A DNA stretch of 64,000 nt, from the NCBI RefSeq assembly GCF_900113065.1, contig NZ_FOOA01000021.1, forward strand, positions 1-64,000, written 5' to 3'. Under the pieces are notes generated by a model. The model saw only the letters and a list, made by a program, of their open reading frames with translations. It was not told the DNA's origin and did not search any database. Source of the stretch: Aureimonas phyllosphaerae. GTDB taxonomy: Bacteria; Pseudomonadota; Alphaproteobacteria; Rhizobiales; Rhizobiaceae. Positions 57,221-64,000 of the stretch are shown piece after piece (position 1 is the first letter of the stretch; every line of letters begins with the position of its first letter). The position numbers and the translations under genes are program-made.

Positions 57221-57793
57221 ATGTCCGCACGCGCCCCGCCCGACGACGCCGCCCCGCGCTTCGCGCTCGCCGAACTGCCGGTGCCCCTCGTCTTCGCCAC
57301 CCACCGCATCATCCGCGACTGCAACGCCGAGTTCGCGGCGCTCTTCGGCTTCGAGCGGCGGGACCTGATCGACGCCAGCTTCTCGCGCCTCTACCCGGCT
57401 CTCGACGACTTCGTGCGCACCGGCGAGATGTGGCGCAGCCATCTGCCGGGCGGCCAAGTCTACCAGGACGAGCGTATCATGCGGGGGGCGATGGGCCGGC
57501 GCTTCTGGGCGCGCGTCAACGGGCGCTCGCGCCGCGCGGCCGATCCGTTCGCCGAGGCGATCTACGCGTTCCAGCCGTTGAACCGGCCGGTCACCGGCGC
57601 GACGCTGCAACTGACCGGCCGCCAGCGCCAGATCCTCGCGCTGGTCGCGCAAGGGCGCACCAATGGCGAGATCGCAGCGGCGATCGGCCTGTCGCCGCGC
57701 ACGATCGAGGCACATCGCCTGCGCCTGTCGCGGGCTGTCGGCGTGCGCAACGGCGCCGAGCTCGTCGCCTGGTTCCTGGCCGAAGGCGGCTGA
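57221..57793 (+). CDS. PAS-LuxR transcriptional regulator
   Basis: The 190-residue protein has a PAS domain (about 15-120; FATHRIIRDCNAEFAALFGFERRDLI) and a LuxR-type helix-turn-helix (about 130-190; LTGRQRQILALVAQGRTNGEIAAAIG). The DNA-binding helix is complete. No receiver domain. Divergent from scoAB, which it likely regulates; the PAS ligand is unknown. Confidence 0.88.
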   Translation: MSARAPPDDAAPRFALAELPVPLVFATHRIIRDCNAEFAALFGFERRDLIDASFSRLYPALDDFVRTGEMWRSHLPGGQVYQDERIMRGAMGRRFWARVNGRSRRAADPFAEAIYAFQPLNRPVTGATLQLTGRQRQILALVAQGRTNGEIAAAIGLSPRTIEAHRLRLSRAVGVRNGAELVAWFLAEGG

Positions 57794-57931
57794 CACGGGC
57801 CCGACGTGCGCGTTTTTGGGCCGCCGCCCGCAACGCGGGGTTTGGCCGGGGCGCGAAATCCGCTATGCCCCGCGCACGAAACGCATCCACCCGACATACG
57901 CCCCGCCCGAAGGGGCCTGGAGACCGCAGCC

Positions 57932-58558
57932 ATGACGATCCGCGTCCACAAGGGAGACCTTCCCGACCTCGCCCGCTACACCGGATCGGTCGCCATCGAC
58001 ACCGAGACGCTCGGCCTCGACACCCGGCGCGACCGTCTCTGCGTGGTGCAGCTGTCGCCGGGCGACGGCACCGCCGACATCGTGCAGATCGCAAAGGGCC
58101 AGCGCGAGGCGCCCAACCTCTGCGCGCTTCTGGCGGACACGACGAAGCGCAAGATCTTCCACTACGCCCGCTTCGACATCGCCGCGCTTTACCATGCGTT
58201 CGGCGTGATGACGCAGCCGGTCTTCTGCACCAAGATCGCCTCGCGACTGACGCGCACCTATACCGACCGGCACGGCCTCAAGGACCTGTCGAAGGAACTG
58301 ATCGGGGTCGACCTGTCGAAACAGCAGCAGTCCTCGGACTGGGCGGCCGAAACGCTCACCCCCGCCCAGCTCGACTACGCCGCCTCGGATGTCCTCTATC
58401 TCCATGACCTGATGGGCGTGCTCCTGAAGCGCCTCGAGCGCGAGGACCGTCTGGAAATCGCCGAAGCCGCCTTCGCCTTCCTGCCGACGCGCGCCAAGCT
58501 CGACCTCCTCGGCTGGGACGAGGAGGACATCTTCTCGCACTCGGTGGCGCGGTCCTGA
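57932..58558 (+). CDS. Ribonuclease D-like 3'-5' exonuclease (no HRDC domain)
   Basis: The 208-residue protein is a DEDD exonuclease domain: Asp-Glu in VAIDTETLGL, HYARFDIAAL, and the final DYAASDVLYLHDL. It lacks the HRDC domains of E. coli RNase D, as is usual for the short alphaproteobacterial form. Probably trims tRNA or other RNA 3' ends. CCTGGAG precedes the ATG. Confidence 0.9.
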   Translation: MTIRVHKGDLPDLARYTGSVAIDTETLGLDTRRDRLCVVQLSPGDGTADIVQIAKGQREAPNLCALLADTTKRKIFHYARFDIAALYHAFGVMTQPVFCTKIASRLTRTYTDRHGLKDLSKELIGVDLSKQQQSSDWAAETLTPAQLDYAASDVLYLHDLMGVLLKRLEREDRLEIAEAAFAFLPTRAKLDLLGWDEEDIFSHSVARS

Positions 58559-58762
58559 TCGCGGGAGCGTGATCGAATCCTCGCGAGATCGTAAGCGCAC
58601 AAGCCGGTTTCGCGGGGCCGCATTAACGGTTGGGCAACACTTTTCCCGGCCGTTCGATTCAATTGTCGTCTTGAGATTCGCGCTCCCTTGAGAGCCGTCG
58701 CCTAGCCTCGTCCCTGTCGCCCGAGATGCCGGCGACGGGGATCAACGAGGGGAAGCGGACTC

Positions 58763-59104
58763 ATGCAGGACATCGATCGTCTCCACGAACTGTCGGAAAC
58801 CCGCCACGCGCTGGCCGAGCGCCGGTCCTTCTGCGACCGCGCGCGCGCCGACCGGCTGGTCGGCCTGTGGGCCGCCGGCCATCTCGGCCTCTCGGAGGAC
58901 GACGCGGACGCCTATGCCGACGCGGTGGTGCGCGCAGGCGTCACGGCACCGGGCGGGCGCGGCGGGTTCGACCGCATCGCCGCCGACCTCGTCGCCACAC
59001 CGGTCCATATCGAGACCATCCGCTCGCACTATGCCATCGCCATGGCCGATCTCGACCGTCCTTTCGGCGCGGCGACGATCCACGCCTACGCGCTCGGCGC
59101 CTGA
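58763..59104 (+). CDS. DUF1476 protein, F1-ATPase zeta-like
   Basis: The 113-residue protein has the DUF1476 core ARADRLVGLWAAGHLGLSEDDADAYADAVV and FDRIAADLVA. DUF1476 includes the zeta subunit that inhibits the F1-ATPase in Paracoccus. Its N-terminal part (LHELSETRHALAERRSF), the segment that inhibits in zeta, is divergent from the usual DREKAFEAKF, so it may be a paralog with another target. No ATP synthase genes are nearby. Confidence 0.8.
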   Translation: MQDIDRLHELSETRHALAERRSFCDRARADRLVGLWAAGHLGLSEDDADAYADAVVRAGVTAPGGRGGFDRIAADLVATPVHIETIRSHYAIAMADLDRPFGAATIHAYALGA

Positions 59105-59126
59105 GGTCCCGGCAGGCGGACCGGCG

Positions 59127-60860
59127 TCAGGCCGGTCCCGCCTCGATCCGGGCGAGCGCCTCGCCCGCCTGGAGATAGGCGCCGGGCTCGGCGACGAGCG
59201 CGATGGTGCCGGCCGCATGGGCCGTCACCTGCGTTTCCATCTTCATCGCCTCCATCACGGCGACGACCTGCCCGGCTTCGACGCGAGCGCCGTCCTCGAC
59301 GCGCCAGCCCTGCAACGTCCCGGCGACGGGCGCCGCGAGACGCGCAGCGTCCGCCGGCGTCTCCTCTGCGGCGGCGACCGGCGCGCCGCCGGTCGTGCCG
59401 AGCCGGGCCAGAAAGGCCGCCGGCAATCCCAGCATGTGACGGCGCCCGTCGATCTCGACCGGCAGCCGCACGGTCGCCATCTCGTCGAGCGGCTCGGGGC
59501 GGGGGGCTGCGGCCAGTTCGCCGGCAAACTCCGTCTCGATCCAGCGGGTGTGGACGCGCAGCGCGTCGCCCGCGAAATCCGGCGCGTCCAGAACCGCCCG
59601 GTGGAACGGCAGAACGGTCGCGACGCCCTCGATACGGAACCCGGAGAGGGCGCGGCGCGCGCGCGCGATCGCCGCCGCGCGCGTCGGCCCGGTGACGACG
59701 AGTTTCGCCATCATCGAATCGAAGTATCCCGGCACGACCGAACCCGACACGACGCCGGCATCCACCCGAACGCCCGGCCCCGAGGGCGGGTCGAACAGGG
59801 TGACGGGACCCGGCGTCGGCAGGAAGCCGCGAGCGGGATCTTCGGCATTGATGCGGAATTCGATCGAGTGACCACGCGGCTCGGGCGTCGAGGTGATCCG
59901 CAGAGGCTCGCCGTCGGCGATCCGAAGCTGCTCCACCACGAGGTCGAGACCGGTCGTCTCCTCCGTCACGGGATGCTCGACCTGCAGCCGCGTGTTGACC
60001 TCGAGGAACGAGATGGTGCCGTCCTGCCCCAGGAGGAACTCCACCGTGCCGGCGCCGACATAGCCGGCTTCGGCACACACGGCGCGCGCGCCCTCGTGGA
60101 TCCGCTCGCGCTGTTCAAGGCTAAGGAAGGGCGCGGGCGCCTCCTCCACCAGCTTCTGGTTCCGGCGCTGCAGCGAGCAGTCGCGCGTGCCGACGACGAG
60201 CACCGTGCCGTGGCGGTCGGCGAGGATCTGCGCCTCGACATGGCGGGGCCGGTCGAGGAAGCGCTCGACGAAGCATTCGCCGCGCCCGAAGGCGGCTTCT
60301 GCCTCGCGCGTCGCGGAGGCGAAGAGCTCCTCCACCTCCTCCAGCCTCCAGGCGACCTTCATGCCGCGCCCGCCGCCGCCGAACGCCGCCTTGATCGCGA
60401 TCGGCAGCCCGTGCGCTTCGGCAAAGGCCAAAGCCTCGCCGGCGTCCTTCACCGGTCCGTCGGAGCCCGGCACCAGCGGTGCGCCGACGCGGGCCGCGAT
60501 CTCGCGCGCGCGCGTCTTGTCGCCGAGCGCCTCGATCACACGAGCGTCGGGTCCGATCCAGTTGATGCCGGCCTCCGTCACCGCGCGGGCGAATTCCGGC
60601 CGCTCGGACAGGAAGCCGTAGCCGGGATGGACGGCGTCGGCGCCCGCACGCCGCGCGACGTCGAGCAGTTTCTCGATGTGGAGATAGGTGTCGGCGGGCG
60701 CGTTGCCGCCGAGCGGATAGGCCTCGTCCGCAAAGCGCACGAATGGTGCGTCGGCGTCGACGTCGGCATAGACGGCGACGGAGGCGACGCCGTGGTCGCG
60801 GCAGGCCCGGGCGATGCGAAGCGCGATCTCGCCGCGATTGGCGATCAGGACTTTTCTCAT
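59127..60860 (-). CDS. Biotin carboxylase-BCCP fusion protein
   Basis: The 577-residue protein has a biotin carboxylase domain (1-445; [50 protein letters not shown]) and a C-terminal biotin carrier domain with the biotinyl Lys540 in EAMKMET. No carboxyltransferase domain is present on this chain. Its start overlaps the PxpB-PxpC gene as ATGA. The operon context suggests it carboxylates a lactam or amide rather than acetyl-CoA. It may be called acetyl-CoA carboxylase subunit by annotation, which I doubt here. Confidence 0.9.
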
Positions 60861-62479
60861 GGGCGACCTTCGCTGCGTTCGGGTTCGATCTCGGCAAAGG
60901 GCCGGATTACGTTGAAGCGGATGCGCGCGCCGACCGGGATCTGCCCGGCCCGGTCGAGATGGTGCTCGGCGAGCGTCGCGATGACGGGATAGCCGCCGGT
61001 CAGCGGATGATCGGCGAGGAAGAGGACGGGCTGGCCGTTGTGCGGCACCTGGATCGCGCCGTTGGCCGTGCCCTCGCTCGGCAGTTCGGCCTTGGGATCG
61101 CGCCGCTCGAGCGGCACCGCACCCTCGATGCGCAGGCCGACGCGGTTGGAGAGCGGCGTCACCGTCCACGTCTGCGCCGTCAGGGTTTGGATGCCGGCAT
61201 CGGTGAACCATTCGGTGCGCGGGCCCATGACGACGTCGAGCACCACGGTCTCGCCGGGCACTGGGAGATCGGCCGGGGGCACCTCCGGCGCGCCGACGGG
61301 GCGACGGGGCGGCCGGGCGTTCACCGCCAGCCGGTCGCCGACGCCGACGGCGGAAGGACCGAGGCGGGCGAGAGAATCCACCGACGCCGACCCCAGCACC
61401 GGCTCGACGGCAAAGCCGCCGCGGACCGCGAGATAGGTGCGAAGGCCGTGCGGGGGCGCCTGGAGCGTGACACGGTCACCGGGCTCGAGCGAGACCGGGC
61501 GATAGGCCTCGGCGATCTGCCGGCGGCCCGCCGCGTCGCGAATCTCGAGCGCCGCGTCCGTGCCAGCGATGGCGACGACGGCGGGTCCCTCCGCCGTGAC
61601 GGTGAAGCCCCCGCCGACGATCTCGAGCGCCGGCTCGCCCGGCTCGTTGCCGACGAGCCGGTTGGCAGCATGGAGCGCGGCGCGGTCGAGCGCGCCGGAG
61701 GCGGAGACCCCTTGCGCGGCCTGCCCCGGCCGGCCGTCGTCCTGGAACAGCGGCGGCATCGGCGCGGCGGTCACGAGCAAGCGCGTGCCGCCGGGGAGCG
61801 CGGGCGCGGCAACGGCCTGCGCGCGCGCCGCTTCCCGCGCGGCGATGGCATCGAACGCCGCCCGGTCGGCCAGCCGCGTGAAGCGCACGCGCGTGCCCGG
61901 CTGGAACAGGGTCGAGGGGTCGCGCGCGAGGTCGAACATCTTGAGCGGCGTCGTGCCGATCAGCTGCCAGCCGCCCGGCCCTTCCTGCGGGTAGACGCCG
62001 GCAAACGGGCCGGCCAGCGCCACGGTGCCGGCGGGAATGCGGGTGCGCGGGCTCGGGCGCCGCGCGACATGGAGCGCGGGATCGCCGCCGACGAGATAGC
62101 CGAAGCCCGGCGCAAAGCCGGTGAAGGCGACGGTGAACTCGGAGGCGGCGTGCCGGGCGATCACTGCCTCCGGCGCGAGGCCCGTCAGCCGCGCGACGTC
62201 GTCGAGGTCCTCGCCATCATAGAGCGTCGGGATCTCGACGAGGCGCTCGGAGGGCGCGGCCTTTGCCGAGATGTCGCGGGCGCGAAGGTCGGCGGCAAAG
62301 GCCGCCATATCGGGGAGCGTTCCCGGCCGGAAGCGCACGAGAAGCGTGCGCGCCGCCGGCACGATCTCCTCGACCGCGGCCAAGGGTTGCGCCTCCAGAG
62401 AGGCGAAGAGCGCCAGCGTCTCGTCGAGGTCGGCAAGCTCGACCAGCACGACCCGCAGGCTGACGGGAAGGATGCGCAT
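60857..62479 (-). CDS. Fused 5-oxoprolinase subunits PxpB-PxpC (KipI-KipA, allophanate hydrolase-type)
   Basis: The 540-residue protein joins a PxpB/KipI domain (about 1-215; [35 protein letters not shown]) to a PxpC/KipA domain (about 225-530; [39 protein letters not shown] and [18 protein letters not shown]). These are the AHS1 and AHS2 domains that form the carboxyltransferase part of urea carboxylase and the PxpBC part of 5-oxoprolinase. Overlaps the carboxylase gene as ATGA. Confidence 0.92.
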
Positions 62480-62488
62480 CCGGGATCC

Positions 62489-63292
62489 TCAGACGTGGTA
62501 GGCAGCGTCAGGCACGTCGGTGACGAACATGTGCCCCGGCGCGTGGGTGACGGCGAAGGGCACGCGCGAGGCCATCACCGCCGCCTGCGGCGTCACCCCG
62601 CAGGCCCAGAAGACCGGGATCTCGCCGGGCTCGATGCGCACGGCATCGCCGAAGTCGGGCCTGGCGAGGTCGGCGATGCCGAGGCTCTGGGGGTCGCCGA
62701 CATGGACCGGCGCACCGTGGACCGCGGGAAAGCGGCCCGAGATCAGGGCGGCGTCCGCCACGCGGGCCGCCGGGATCGGCCGCATGGACACGACCATCGG
62801 GCCGGACAGGCGCCCGGCCGGGCGGCAGGGGCGGTTGGTCAGGTACATCGGCACGTTGGTGCCGTCCGTGATGTGGCGCACCTCGATGCCGGCCTCCTGA
62901 AGCGGCGCCTCGAAGGTGAAGGAGCAGCCGATCAGGAAGGTGACGAGGTCGCCGGCCTCCTCGTAGGCGGCGGCGGCATCGGGTACCTCGTCCACCAGCC
63001 GCCCGTCGCGCCAGACGCGGTAGAGCGGGATGTCACGCGCGACATCCGCCCCATCGGCCAGCACCGTCTCGCGCGAACCCGCCTCCAGAACGTCGAGGAC
63101 GGGGCAGCTCTTCGGGTTGCGCTGGGCATAGAGCAGGAAGTCGAAGGCCCAGTCGCGCGGCAGGGCGATCATGTTGGCCTGCGTCAAGCCCGGCGCGACG
63201 CCGGCCGTCGACCGCACGAGGCCGGCGCGGTATTGCGCACGGGCCGCGCGGCCCGCCTCGCGCAGCGGGTCCAGCTTGTCGGAAGCGCTCAT
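62489..63292 (-). CDS. DUF1445 putative hydro-lyase (D-glutamate cyclase-like)
   Basis: The 267-residue protein is a complete PF07286 member: [40 protein letters not shown], with [18 protein letters not shown], and [12 protein letters not shown] near the end. The mammalian homolog DGLUCY interconverts D-glutamate and 5-oxo-D-proline, which fits this operon. The bacterial enzyme's substrate is not proven. The start overlaps the pxpA stop as ATGA. Confidence 0.88.
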
Positions 63293-64000
63293 GACATGTC
63301 TCCTCGGGCAGGCGCGAAGGGCGAGATCGTGATGCCGTCGGCCGTGAGGCGCTCGCGCACGGCGCGGGCGATCGAAACCGCGCCGGGGCTGTCGCCGTGG
63401 ACGCAGATCGACTGGGCGCGCAGGCGGATGATCGAGCCGTCCACCGCCTCGATCTCGCCGTCCGAGGCCAGCCGCGCCATGCGAGCCGCGACCACGGCCG
63501 GATCGTGGATCACCGCGCCCGGCTCACGGCGGGAGACCAGCGTGCCCTCCGGCGTATAGGCGCGGTCGGCGAAGGCTTCCGAGACGGTCTCGAGGCCCGC
63601 GGCCTCGGCGAGCCGCACCAGCGGCGCGTTGGCAAGACACATCAGGACCAGCGACCGGTCGACGGCGAGGATCGCCTCCACCACGTCGCGGCCCTGCCGG
63701 GGGTCGCTCGCGATCGTGTTGTAAAGAGCCCCGTGGGGCTTCACGTAGGTGACGCGGGTGCCGGCCACCTCGGCGAGGCTCTTCAGCGCGCCGATCTGGT
63801 AGATGACGTCGGCGACCAGGTCCTCGGACGCGACGTCCATGTTGCGGCGGCCGAAGCCGCCGCGGTCGGGATAGGAGACGTGGGCGCCGATCGCGACGCC
63901 CCGCGCGGCCGCGCTCTTCAGCGTGCGCAGGATGCCGGCCGGGTCGCCTGCGTGAAACCCGCAGGCGACATTGGCGGAGGAGACGAGGCCGAGCATGGTC
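63289..64000 (-). CDS. pxpA: 5-oxoprolinase subunit PxpA (LamB/YcsF family), start beyond window
   Basis: The visible part (about 236 residues) has [40 protein letters not shown] and [10 protein letters not shown], all PxpA/YcsF hallmarks. About 25 N-terminal residues, with the usual DLNCDLGE, lie right of position 64000, so the Met at 63996 is internal. PxpA opens 5-oxoproline with PxpB and PxpC using ATP. First visible gene of the operon. Confidence 0.92.

Follow-up and report, generated by a model that had tools for sequence, protein, structure and literature searches.

Do some bacterial 5-oxoprolinases open their ring by carboxylating it? This question is raised by an operon at positions 59127-64000 of a 64,000-nucleotide stretch of DNA from Aureimonas phyllosphaerae (contig NZ_FOOA01000021.1, positions 1 to 64,000; hereafter, the window), in which homologues of the 5-oxoprolinase subunits PxpA, PxpB, and PxpC are encoded together with a protein that joins a biotin carboxylase (BC) to a biotin carboxyl carrier protein (BCCP). 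The reading that we favor, with moderate confidence, is a 5-oxoproline utilization operon in which the PxpB-PxpC fusion (PxpBC) is a biotin-dependent carboxyltransferase (CT) that receives carboxybiotin from its own BC-BCCP protein. Comparative sequence data support the view that BC-BCCP and PxpBC work together, and we infer the carboxyl transfer, its substrate, and a role for PxpA in a second step.

The operon and its proteins

The four genes lie on the minus strand and are transcribed in the order pxpA, DUF1445, pxpB-pxpC fusion, and BC-BCCP fusion. Open reading frames (ORFs) and Pfam agree with the gene set and domain types given for this region in the original prediction. The pxpA gene (LamB/YcsF family, 5-oxoprolinase subunit A; PF03746, 335 bits) occupies 63289..64000 and is clipped by the window edge; on the contig, which reaches 3982 bases further, the full gene spans 63289-64068 and encodes 259 amino acids. 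Next are a DUF1445/D-glutamate cyclase family protein of 267 amino acids (62489..63292; PF07286, 228 bits; NF003969, 402 bits), whose counterpart in B. subtilis is ycsI, PxpBC (60857..62479; 540 amino acids; PF02682 and PF02626), and BC-BCCP (59127..60860; 577 amino acids). Pfam matches above the cut-offs are LamB_YcsF in PxpA, D-Glu_cyclase in DUF1445, CT_C_D and then CT_A_B in PxpBC, and Biotin_carb_N, CPSase_L_D2, Biotin_carb_C, and Biotin_lipoyl in BC-BCCP. The four-base gene overlaps that had been predicted are present, by ORF coordinates, between the pxpA stop and the DUF1445 start (63289..63292) and between the PxpBC stop and the BC-BCCP start (ATGA, 60857..60860), whereas DUF1445 and PxpBC are separated by a gap of nine bases. 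Of 69 loci in which the PxpBC/BC junction was measured, the window among them, 24 have exactly this four-base overlap.

The BC domains (residues 1-445, 59526..60860) retain 14 of the 15 active-site positions of E. coli AccC that were checked, and across 70 loci of the window type, 14 of the 15 are kept in at least 68. The BCCP (biotinyl) domain (residues 509-572, 59145..59336; PF00364, 54.9 bits) contains the motif EAMKMET with Lys540 (codon 59241..59243) as the predicted biotinylation site. An AMK or SMK biotinyl motif is present in 67 of the 70 loci; the other three are clipped by a contig end (L127) or have short tails (L084 and L105). The best solved relative of BC-BCCP is AccA3 (726 bits), and the best match other than AccA3 reached 471 bits. 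A structure prediction for BC-BCCP gave a poor model (pLDDT, the predicted local distance difference test score, of 70), which was left unused.

PxpBC consists of a CT_C_D domain (AHS1, the PxpB part; residues 1-191, 61907..62479) and a CT_A_B domain (AHS2, the PxpC part; residues 257-523, 60911..61711), and as modeled with AlphaFold2 (pLDDT 93.5) it has the CT fold of urea carboxylase. Via structure search, the model was matched to 3mml_G (Z 39.4, 287 residues, root-mean-square deviation (rmsd) 1.4), and the fused protein TTHA0988 (3oep; Z 39.0, 472 residues, rmsd 2.7). It also matched E. coli YbgK with Z 34.7 over 279 residues (rmsd 2.1) and the CT portion of the urea amidolyase of K. lactis (5i8i) with Z 33.5 over 304 residues (rmsd 3.3). 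Polar residues common to PxpBC and urea carboxylase are R145 and Q172 of PxpB and R250, D265, E286, R446, and Q513 of PxpC, the last five of which are conserved at ≥93% in each group with more than ten rows.

Linkage, descent, and a homologous complex

The adjacency of BC and PxpBC genes is not due to chance. A genome scan confirmed at least 592 PxpBC relatives, of which the best 80 were kept, and the counts thus describe nearest relatives and not the family; the PxpBC stretch contains a stop or frame change in eight of the 80. BC lies directly downstream on the same strand in 63 of these 80 fused-PxpBC relatives, comprising 39 of 39 proteobacterial loci, which span Alpha-, Beta-, and Gammaproteobacteria, and 24 of 41 actinobacterial loci. 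The 17 actinobacterial loci counted as lacking BC include one (L090) whose contig ends 67 bases after PxpC. All 13 actinobacterial genomes that lack a local BC and were searched encode an AccA3-like BC-BCCP elsewhere, 58-64% identical to the window protein (three of these matches hold one stop codon within the matched stretch), and PxpC of such genomes mostly retains the clade residues. Among the 80 loci, PxpA is present in 79, BCCP in 60 by tblastn, a GntR relative in 54, an Nramp-family relative in 33, and DUF1445 within the fetched stretch in 31, where it stands between PxpA and PxpBC in 18. The closest PxpBC among the matches listed is that of Aureimonas endophytica (74% identity), which makes an Aurantimonadaceae-like alphaproteobacterial host probable, and no close PxpBC relative was confirmed in viral contigs.

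Two further samples were used, an order-level set and an even sample of 150 Pseudomonadota genomes, which have several genomes in common. All five fused loci of the order-level set (the window genome, G023 twice, G034, and G116) carry BC-BCCP. CT_A_B was found in 45 genomes of the even sample, with 62 matches in total. Nineteen of these are urea-carboxylase-length frames that were set apart, 17 of them serving as outgroup, and one of the remaining 43 loci was dropped as clipped by a contig end (G042). BC lies within about 5 kb of 14 of the 42 resulting loci. The binomial chance of this is 3.5e-15, or 1.4e-12 for 12 of 40 when the own genome is excluded, at an expected rate of 1.6% per locus that was roughly set by hand from seven BC matches in the own genome. 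A BC is present in all 45 CT_A_B-bearing genomes, which says little because acetyl-CoA carboxylase needs one. The survey of co-occurrence that had been proposed with the original prediction found the link both in nearest relatives and in the even sample. The 14 loci have three layouts. Seven are PxpA-[DUF1445]-PxpBC-BC~BCCP, and four, one of them a further locus in the own genome, are PxpA-BCCP-BC-PxpB-PxpC. The last three pair an E. coli-like PxpBC with a BC that resembles AccC, and BCCP is visible in two of them. At the type V locus L173, BCCP was not seen in the stretch examined.

Trees were calculated under LG+G4 without a mixture model, and one PxpC tree and one BC tree were made by a quick method. 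Four long rows (L180, L190, L191, and L195) are unsurely placed, and several deep forks are not starred. The quick PxpC tree took 48 of the 80 scan loci, the second PxpC tree fewer, and the BC trees consisted of 89 and 59 selected rows. The sampled urea carboxylases are a single clade of the PxpC tree, and the M. smegmatis protein MSMEG_0435 is placed inside the clade of the window. A clade of type III and archaeal rows (100/98) lies next to all others (fork of the others 83/66). Loci with and without a linked BC are intermingled in the E. coli-like clade, and Lactiplantibacillus stands apart. The label of BC linkage needs 12 changes on the PxpC tree, at least nine of them on starred branches, compared to a mean of 29 for shuffled labels.

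BC-BCCPs of the window type group with AccA3 in the BC trees, in a 66-row clade with a Shimodaira-Hasegawa-like approximate likelihood ratio (SH-aLRT) of 100 and in a 33-row clade of the second tree (100/99). Type III BCs are a clade of their own, type V BCs group with E. coli AccC, and the Lactiplantibacillus BC falls elsewhere; none of the PxpBC-linked BCs falls with the sampled urea carboxylases. Because these BCs fall in separate places, it appears that four or five distinct biotin carboxylases were recruited by different PxpBC lineages, where four is possible because the archaeal BC adjoins the AccA3 clade (94/87). The window operon contains every domain type of urea carboxylase (BC, CT_A_B, CT_C_D, and BCCP) over two genes, as had been predicted, but the idea of a split urea carboxylase fails as a statement of descent, since the BC groups with AccA3 and not with the urea carboxylase BCs sampled. 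Judged from these trees, the operon is urea-carboxylase-like in its parts, not by descent.

A solved complex, read by its title, brings homologues of the two proteins together in a mycobacterium. By its title, PDB 9yx5 is a long chain acyl-CoA carboxylase complex of M. smegmatis with MSMEG_0435-MSMEG_0436 bound. Among its chains is AccA3, to which the window BC-BCCP is closer than to any other solved protein, and in a by-eye comparison of printed alignments it also has chains that agree with 3mml (the M. smegmatis pair Msmeg0435-Msmeg0436) over the aligned stretches. Going by the title, a homologous PxpBC is bound in this AccA3-containing complex. No paper behind the entry turned up in the literature searches. 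The claim that BC-BCCP and PxpBC belong together is thus strengthened by an operon conserved from Alphaproteobacteria to Actinomycetota, by more than one recruitment of BC, and by 9yx5.

A proposed carboxylation route and its competitors

The equilibrium between 5-oxoproline and glutamate is reported to favor the ring (Keq about 0.035; PMC13274462), and ring opening must therefore be paid for. ATP spent on bicarbonate, with carboxyl transfer to the lactam, would pay for it. In the proposed route, the biotin of Lys540 would be carboxylated by BC at the expense of ATP and bicarbonate, carboxybiotin would travel on the BCCP arm to the urea-carboxylase-like site of PxpBC, and PxpBC would carboxylate the substrate at the nitrogen of the lactam or at the oxygen of the lactim. 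The activated ring would be hydrolyzed by PxpA, and N-carboxyglutamate would then lose CO2 to give glutamate. The net reaction would be 5-oxoproline + ATP -> glutamate + ADP + Pi, with bicarbonate recycled; N-carboxylated 5-oxoproline is a plausible intermediate. The operon probably handles L-5-oxoproline and, via DUF1445, the D-form as well. Caprolactamase CapAB (HyuAB type) is a likeness from outside the family, as it also opens a lactam with ATP and requires bicarbonate, and a carboxylated lactim is among the three mechanisms proposed for it (PMC8453981). However, CapAB belongs to different protein families, and the mechanisms proposed in that text involve no biotin.

Regulator and transporter genes point to the same substrate. 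In C. glutamicum, a GntR repressor that binds 5-oxoproline is encoded divergently from transporter-pxpABC genes (pxpR/pxpTABC), and these genes are needed for growth on 5-oxoproline (PMC13274462). Past the window edge, the contig encodes an Nramp-family protein (P0006; contig 64085-65437, same strand as the operon) and a GntR/FCD regulator (contig 65686-66360, divergent from the operon); these and the operon are the same kinds of parts as in C. glutamicum, compared by layout. The B. subtilis Nramp homologue YcsG has also been reported as a manganese importer (PMC10448178). The role of the YcsG/PxpT homologue is therefore disputed between 5-oxoproline and manganese import. Neither DPGN nor MPH is present in P0006. 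These are Nramp metal-site motifs, and their absence makes an organic substrate of P0006 more likely.

Compared to the PxpABC systems already described (YbgJKL, KipI-KipA-YcsF), the window has homologues of the same three subunits and an Nramp-family neighbor like B. subtilis ycsG. It differs in the fusion of PxpB and PxpC, in a dedicated BC-BCCP within the operon, and in scores below the equivalog cut-offs for PxpB (TIGR00370, 131.9 against 145.55 bits) and PxpC (NF045499, 168.3 against 500 bits). The broader model TIGR00724 is reached by PxpBC (232.5 against 230.2 bits), and PxpA passes the NCBIfam subfamily model NF003814 (377 against 226 bits). A lactam, which the original prediction had named as the likely substrate, finds support in this PxpA score and in the C. 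glutamicum-like layout.

The competitor that survives best is direct ATP-dependent phosphorylation of 5-oxoproline by PxpABC, with BC-BCCP bound to PxpBC for a second substrate, for bicarbonate regulation, or for storage. We consider it unlikely, although it is the assumption of the current literature, in which ATP use by PxpABC is described as "assumed" (PMC13274462). A number of observations weigh against carboxylation, and the lack of nearby BC genes also counts in favor of direct phosphorylation: 28 of 42 even-sample loci have no nearby BC, and neither do the 26 of 26 further order-level loci within 1.5 kb flanks (at one of these, G105, PxpA, BC, and BCCP lie on the opposite strand at a distance of about 2 to 5 kb, the BC being 3.7 kb off). 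In E. coli K-12, pxpABC likewise has no BC in its vicinity, and the description of the B. subtilis operon in PMC10448178 names none. Several CT residues of urea carboxylase differ in PxpC, around 465-471 and 490-497, where type III PxpC retains some urea-carboxylase letters. When BC-linked and BC-free PxpBC were compared, no residue tracked BC presence cleanly rather than ancestry; Q172 of PxpB came closest, yet it fails in type V. In addition, 9yx5 is known by its title, chain names, and aligned sequence, from which neither the PxpBC-contacting subunit nor the functional role is visible.

A further objection comes from B. subtilis. According to a 2017 abstract by Niehaus, recombinant PxpA, PxpB, and PxpC of this organism reportedly suffice for activity when combined, which argues that not every PxpABC member needs BC. 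If no BC was carried along in those preparations, the BC-linked systems form a subclass, and the carboxylase route may be confined to it. Direct phosphorylation has its own difficulties. Among solved structures, PxpBC strongly matches members of its own family and urea carboxylase, and no kinase is among these strong matches; BC was also recruited from different lineages. A scan for Walker A found the motif in neither PxpBC nor PxpA of the window, and in 1 of 138 PxpB and 1 of 139 PxpC proteins, which is weak evidence.

Carboxylation by PxpBC could also be more general than the window operon suggests. In a wider version, which we hold as a tentative and somewhat doubtful extension, the whole PxpABC family would be biotin-dependent and served by a dedicated or housekeeping BC-BCCP (AccA3 in Actinomycetota, AccB-AccC in E. 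coli-like bacteria), with N-carboxy-5-oxoproline as the true intermediate and PxpA as its hydrolase. When the PxpC tree is rooted on urea carboxylase, the first Pxp branch is the mostly BC-linked type III and archaeal clade, although the fork separating the remaining rows is supported at only 83/66 and one of the two archaea lacks a BC within 5 kb. Because of this first branch, biotin dependence could be ancestral, and BC-free loci could use a BC in trans.

It is also conceivable, but rather improbable, that PxpBC and BC-BCCP carboxylate another nitrogen compound (another lactam, a hydantoin, an amide, or a urea derivative) before hydrolysis by PxpA. The PxpB and PxpC scores below the equivalog cut-offs fit this view. 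The own genome also has two BC-linked pxp loci that are different, and because of this they may differ in substrate. Furthermore, one type III locus lies among LysR, GntR, and ABC transporter genes, with no Nramp-family gene in the stretch examined. Against this stand the PxpA subfamily score and the Nramp-family and GntR neighbors, which fit the 5-oxoproline layout of C. glutamicum.

An accidental neighborhood of an acyl-CoA carboxylase alpha subunit is highly improbable. The closeness of BC-BCCP to AccA3, an acyl-CoA carboxylase subunit, speaks for it. In the mycobacterial complex this subunit serves as BC-BCCP; the window has a dedicated one. The constant order and strand in 63 of 80 nearest relatives across three proteobacterial classes and Actinomycetota, the enrichment in the even sample, and 9yx5 speak against it. 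A split but genuine urea carboxylase, with which the window shares all four domain types, the CT fold, and the polar residues (K. lactis 3va7 and 5i8i), is all but ruled out by the equivalog TIGR02712 (504 and 127 bits, far under the cut-off of 1303.85) and by trees that place both the PxpC part and the BC part outside the urea carboxylase clade, and the window also differs in being two proteins with a BC of AccA3 lineage, and in having PxpA and no allophanate hydrolase (amidase) among the identified operon genes.

Further loci and meaning for the family

CT_A_B has two matches in the own genome and no more: one in the window operon and one in a second locus on contig C27 (L044:3396-7765), which comprises PxpA, a short BCCP frame, BC, and divergent PxpB and PxpC. 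Its PxpC has some urea-carboxylase letters and its BC belongs to a separate clade. A third PxpA-family gene on contig C13 (L045:411-1136) has no PxpB/PxpC match in the 6 kb examined. An identical BC match (same score, coordinates 2083-2406) on contigs C34 and C38 may reflect a duplication in the assembly or a genuine near-copy. Next to the window operon, a gene for ATPase inhibitor subunit zeta (plus strand, 58763-59104) is convergent with it and ends 22 bases before the BC-BCCP stop; it is probably unrelated. On the minus strand, ARAGORN called a permuted tmRNA (58938-59644) that overlaps the gene for BC-BCCP; the call is probably false because Rfam has no match at gathering score in 57500-64000.

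Related clusters also occur on plasmids and in archaea. The order on a Lactiplantibacillus plasmid (L228) is pxpB-pxpC-BCCP-BC-DUF1445-pxpA-Nramp. A genome paper on L. pentosus counts an additional BCCP/BC copy as one species-specific trait and pxpB/pxpC as another (PMC12427679), and these may be one cluster resembling that of L228. The Klebsiella pneumoniae plasmid pINF344.2 (IncFIB; L232, 669-7829) carries the whole operon, with genes for GntR, Nramp, PxpA, DUF1445, PxpBC, and an ATP-grasp BC protein; matches to PxpBC or its relatives occur in 100 plasmid records of Klebsiella, and this is the one in which gene content was examined. In the haloarchaeon Haladaptatus, PxpA, BC, PxpB, and PxpC are found together with a gene of BCCP size, assigned as BCCP by its size, place, and annotation as acetyl-CoA carboxylase. 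Natribaculum, another haloarchaeon, has PxpB, PxpC, and a similar small gene, with no BC or PxpA within 5 kb.

Literature searches, whose coverage mostly excluded subscription papers and preprints, found no stated link between BC and Pxp proteins. A family study of 2011 noted split urea-carboxylase-type genes, and its section 8 makes no link to BC (PMC3199775). The parts belong to known families, and the searches suggest that the BC-Pxp combination and the reaction that it implies have no match in the literature found.

According to the literature, PxpABC is a common means of dealing with a metabolite-damage product that cells cannot avoid, though PxpB and PxpC resemble a carboxyltransferase. 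The repeated recruitment of BC offers a testable answer, in which ATP goes to bicarbonate and the lactam is activated by carboxylation. As read from sequence comparisons, the finding suggests that some bacterial 5-oxoprolinases act by carboxylating their substrate. If this is true, lactams would join the substrates of biotin-dependent carboxylases, the mycobacterial complex 9yx5 would gain meaning, and the annotation of some "extra acetyl-CoA carboxylase" genes would come into question.

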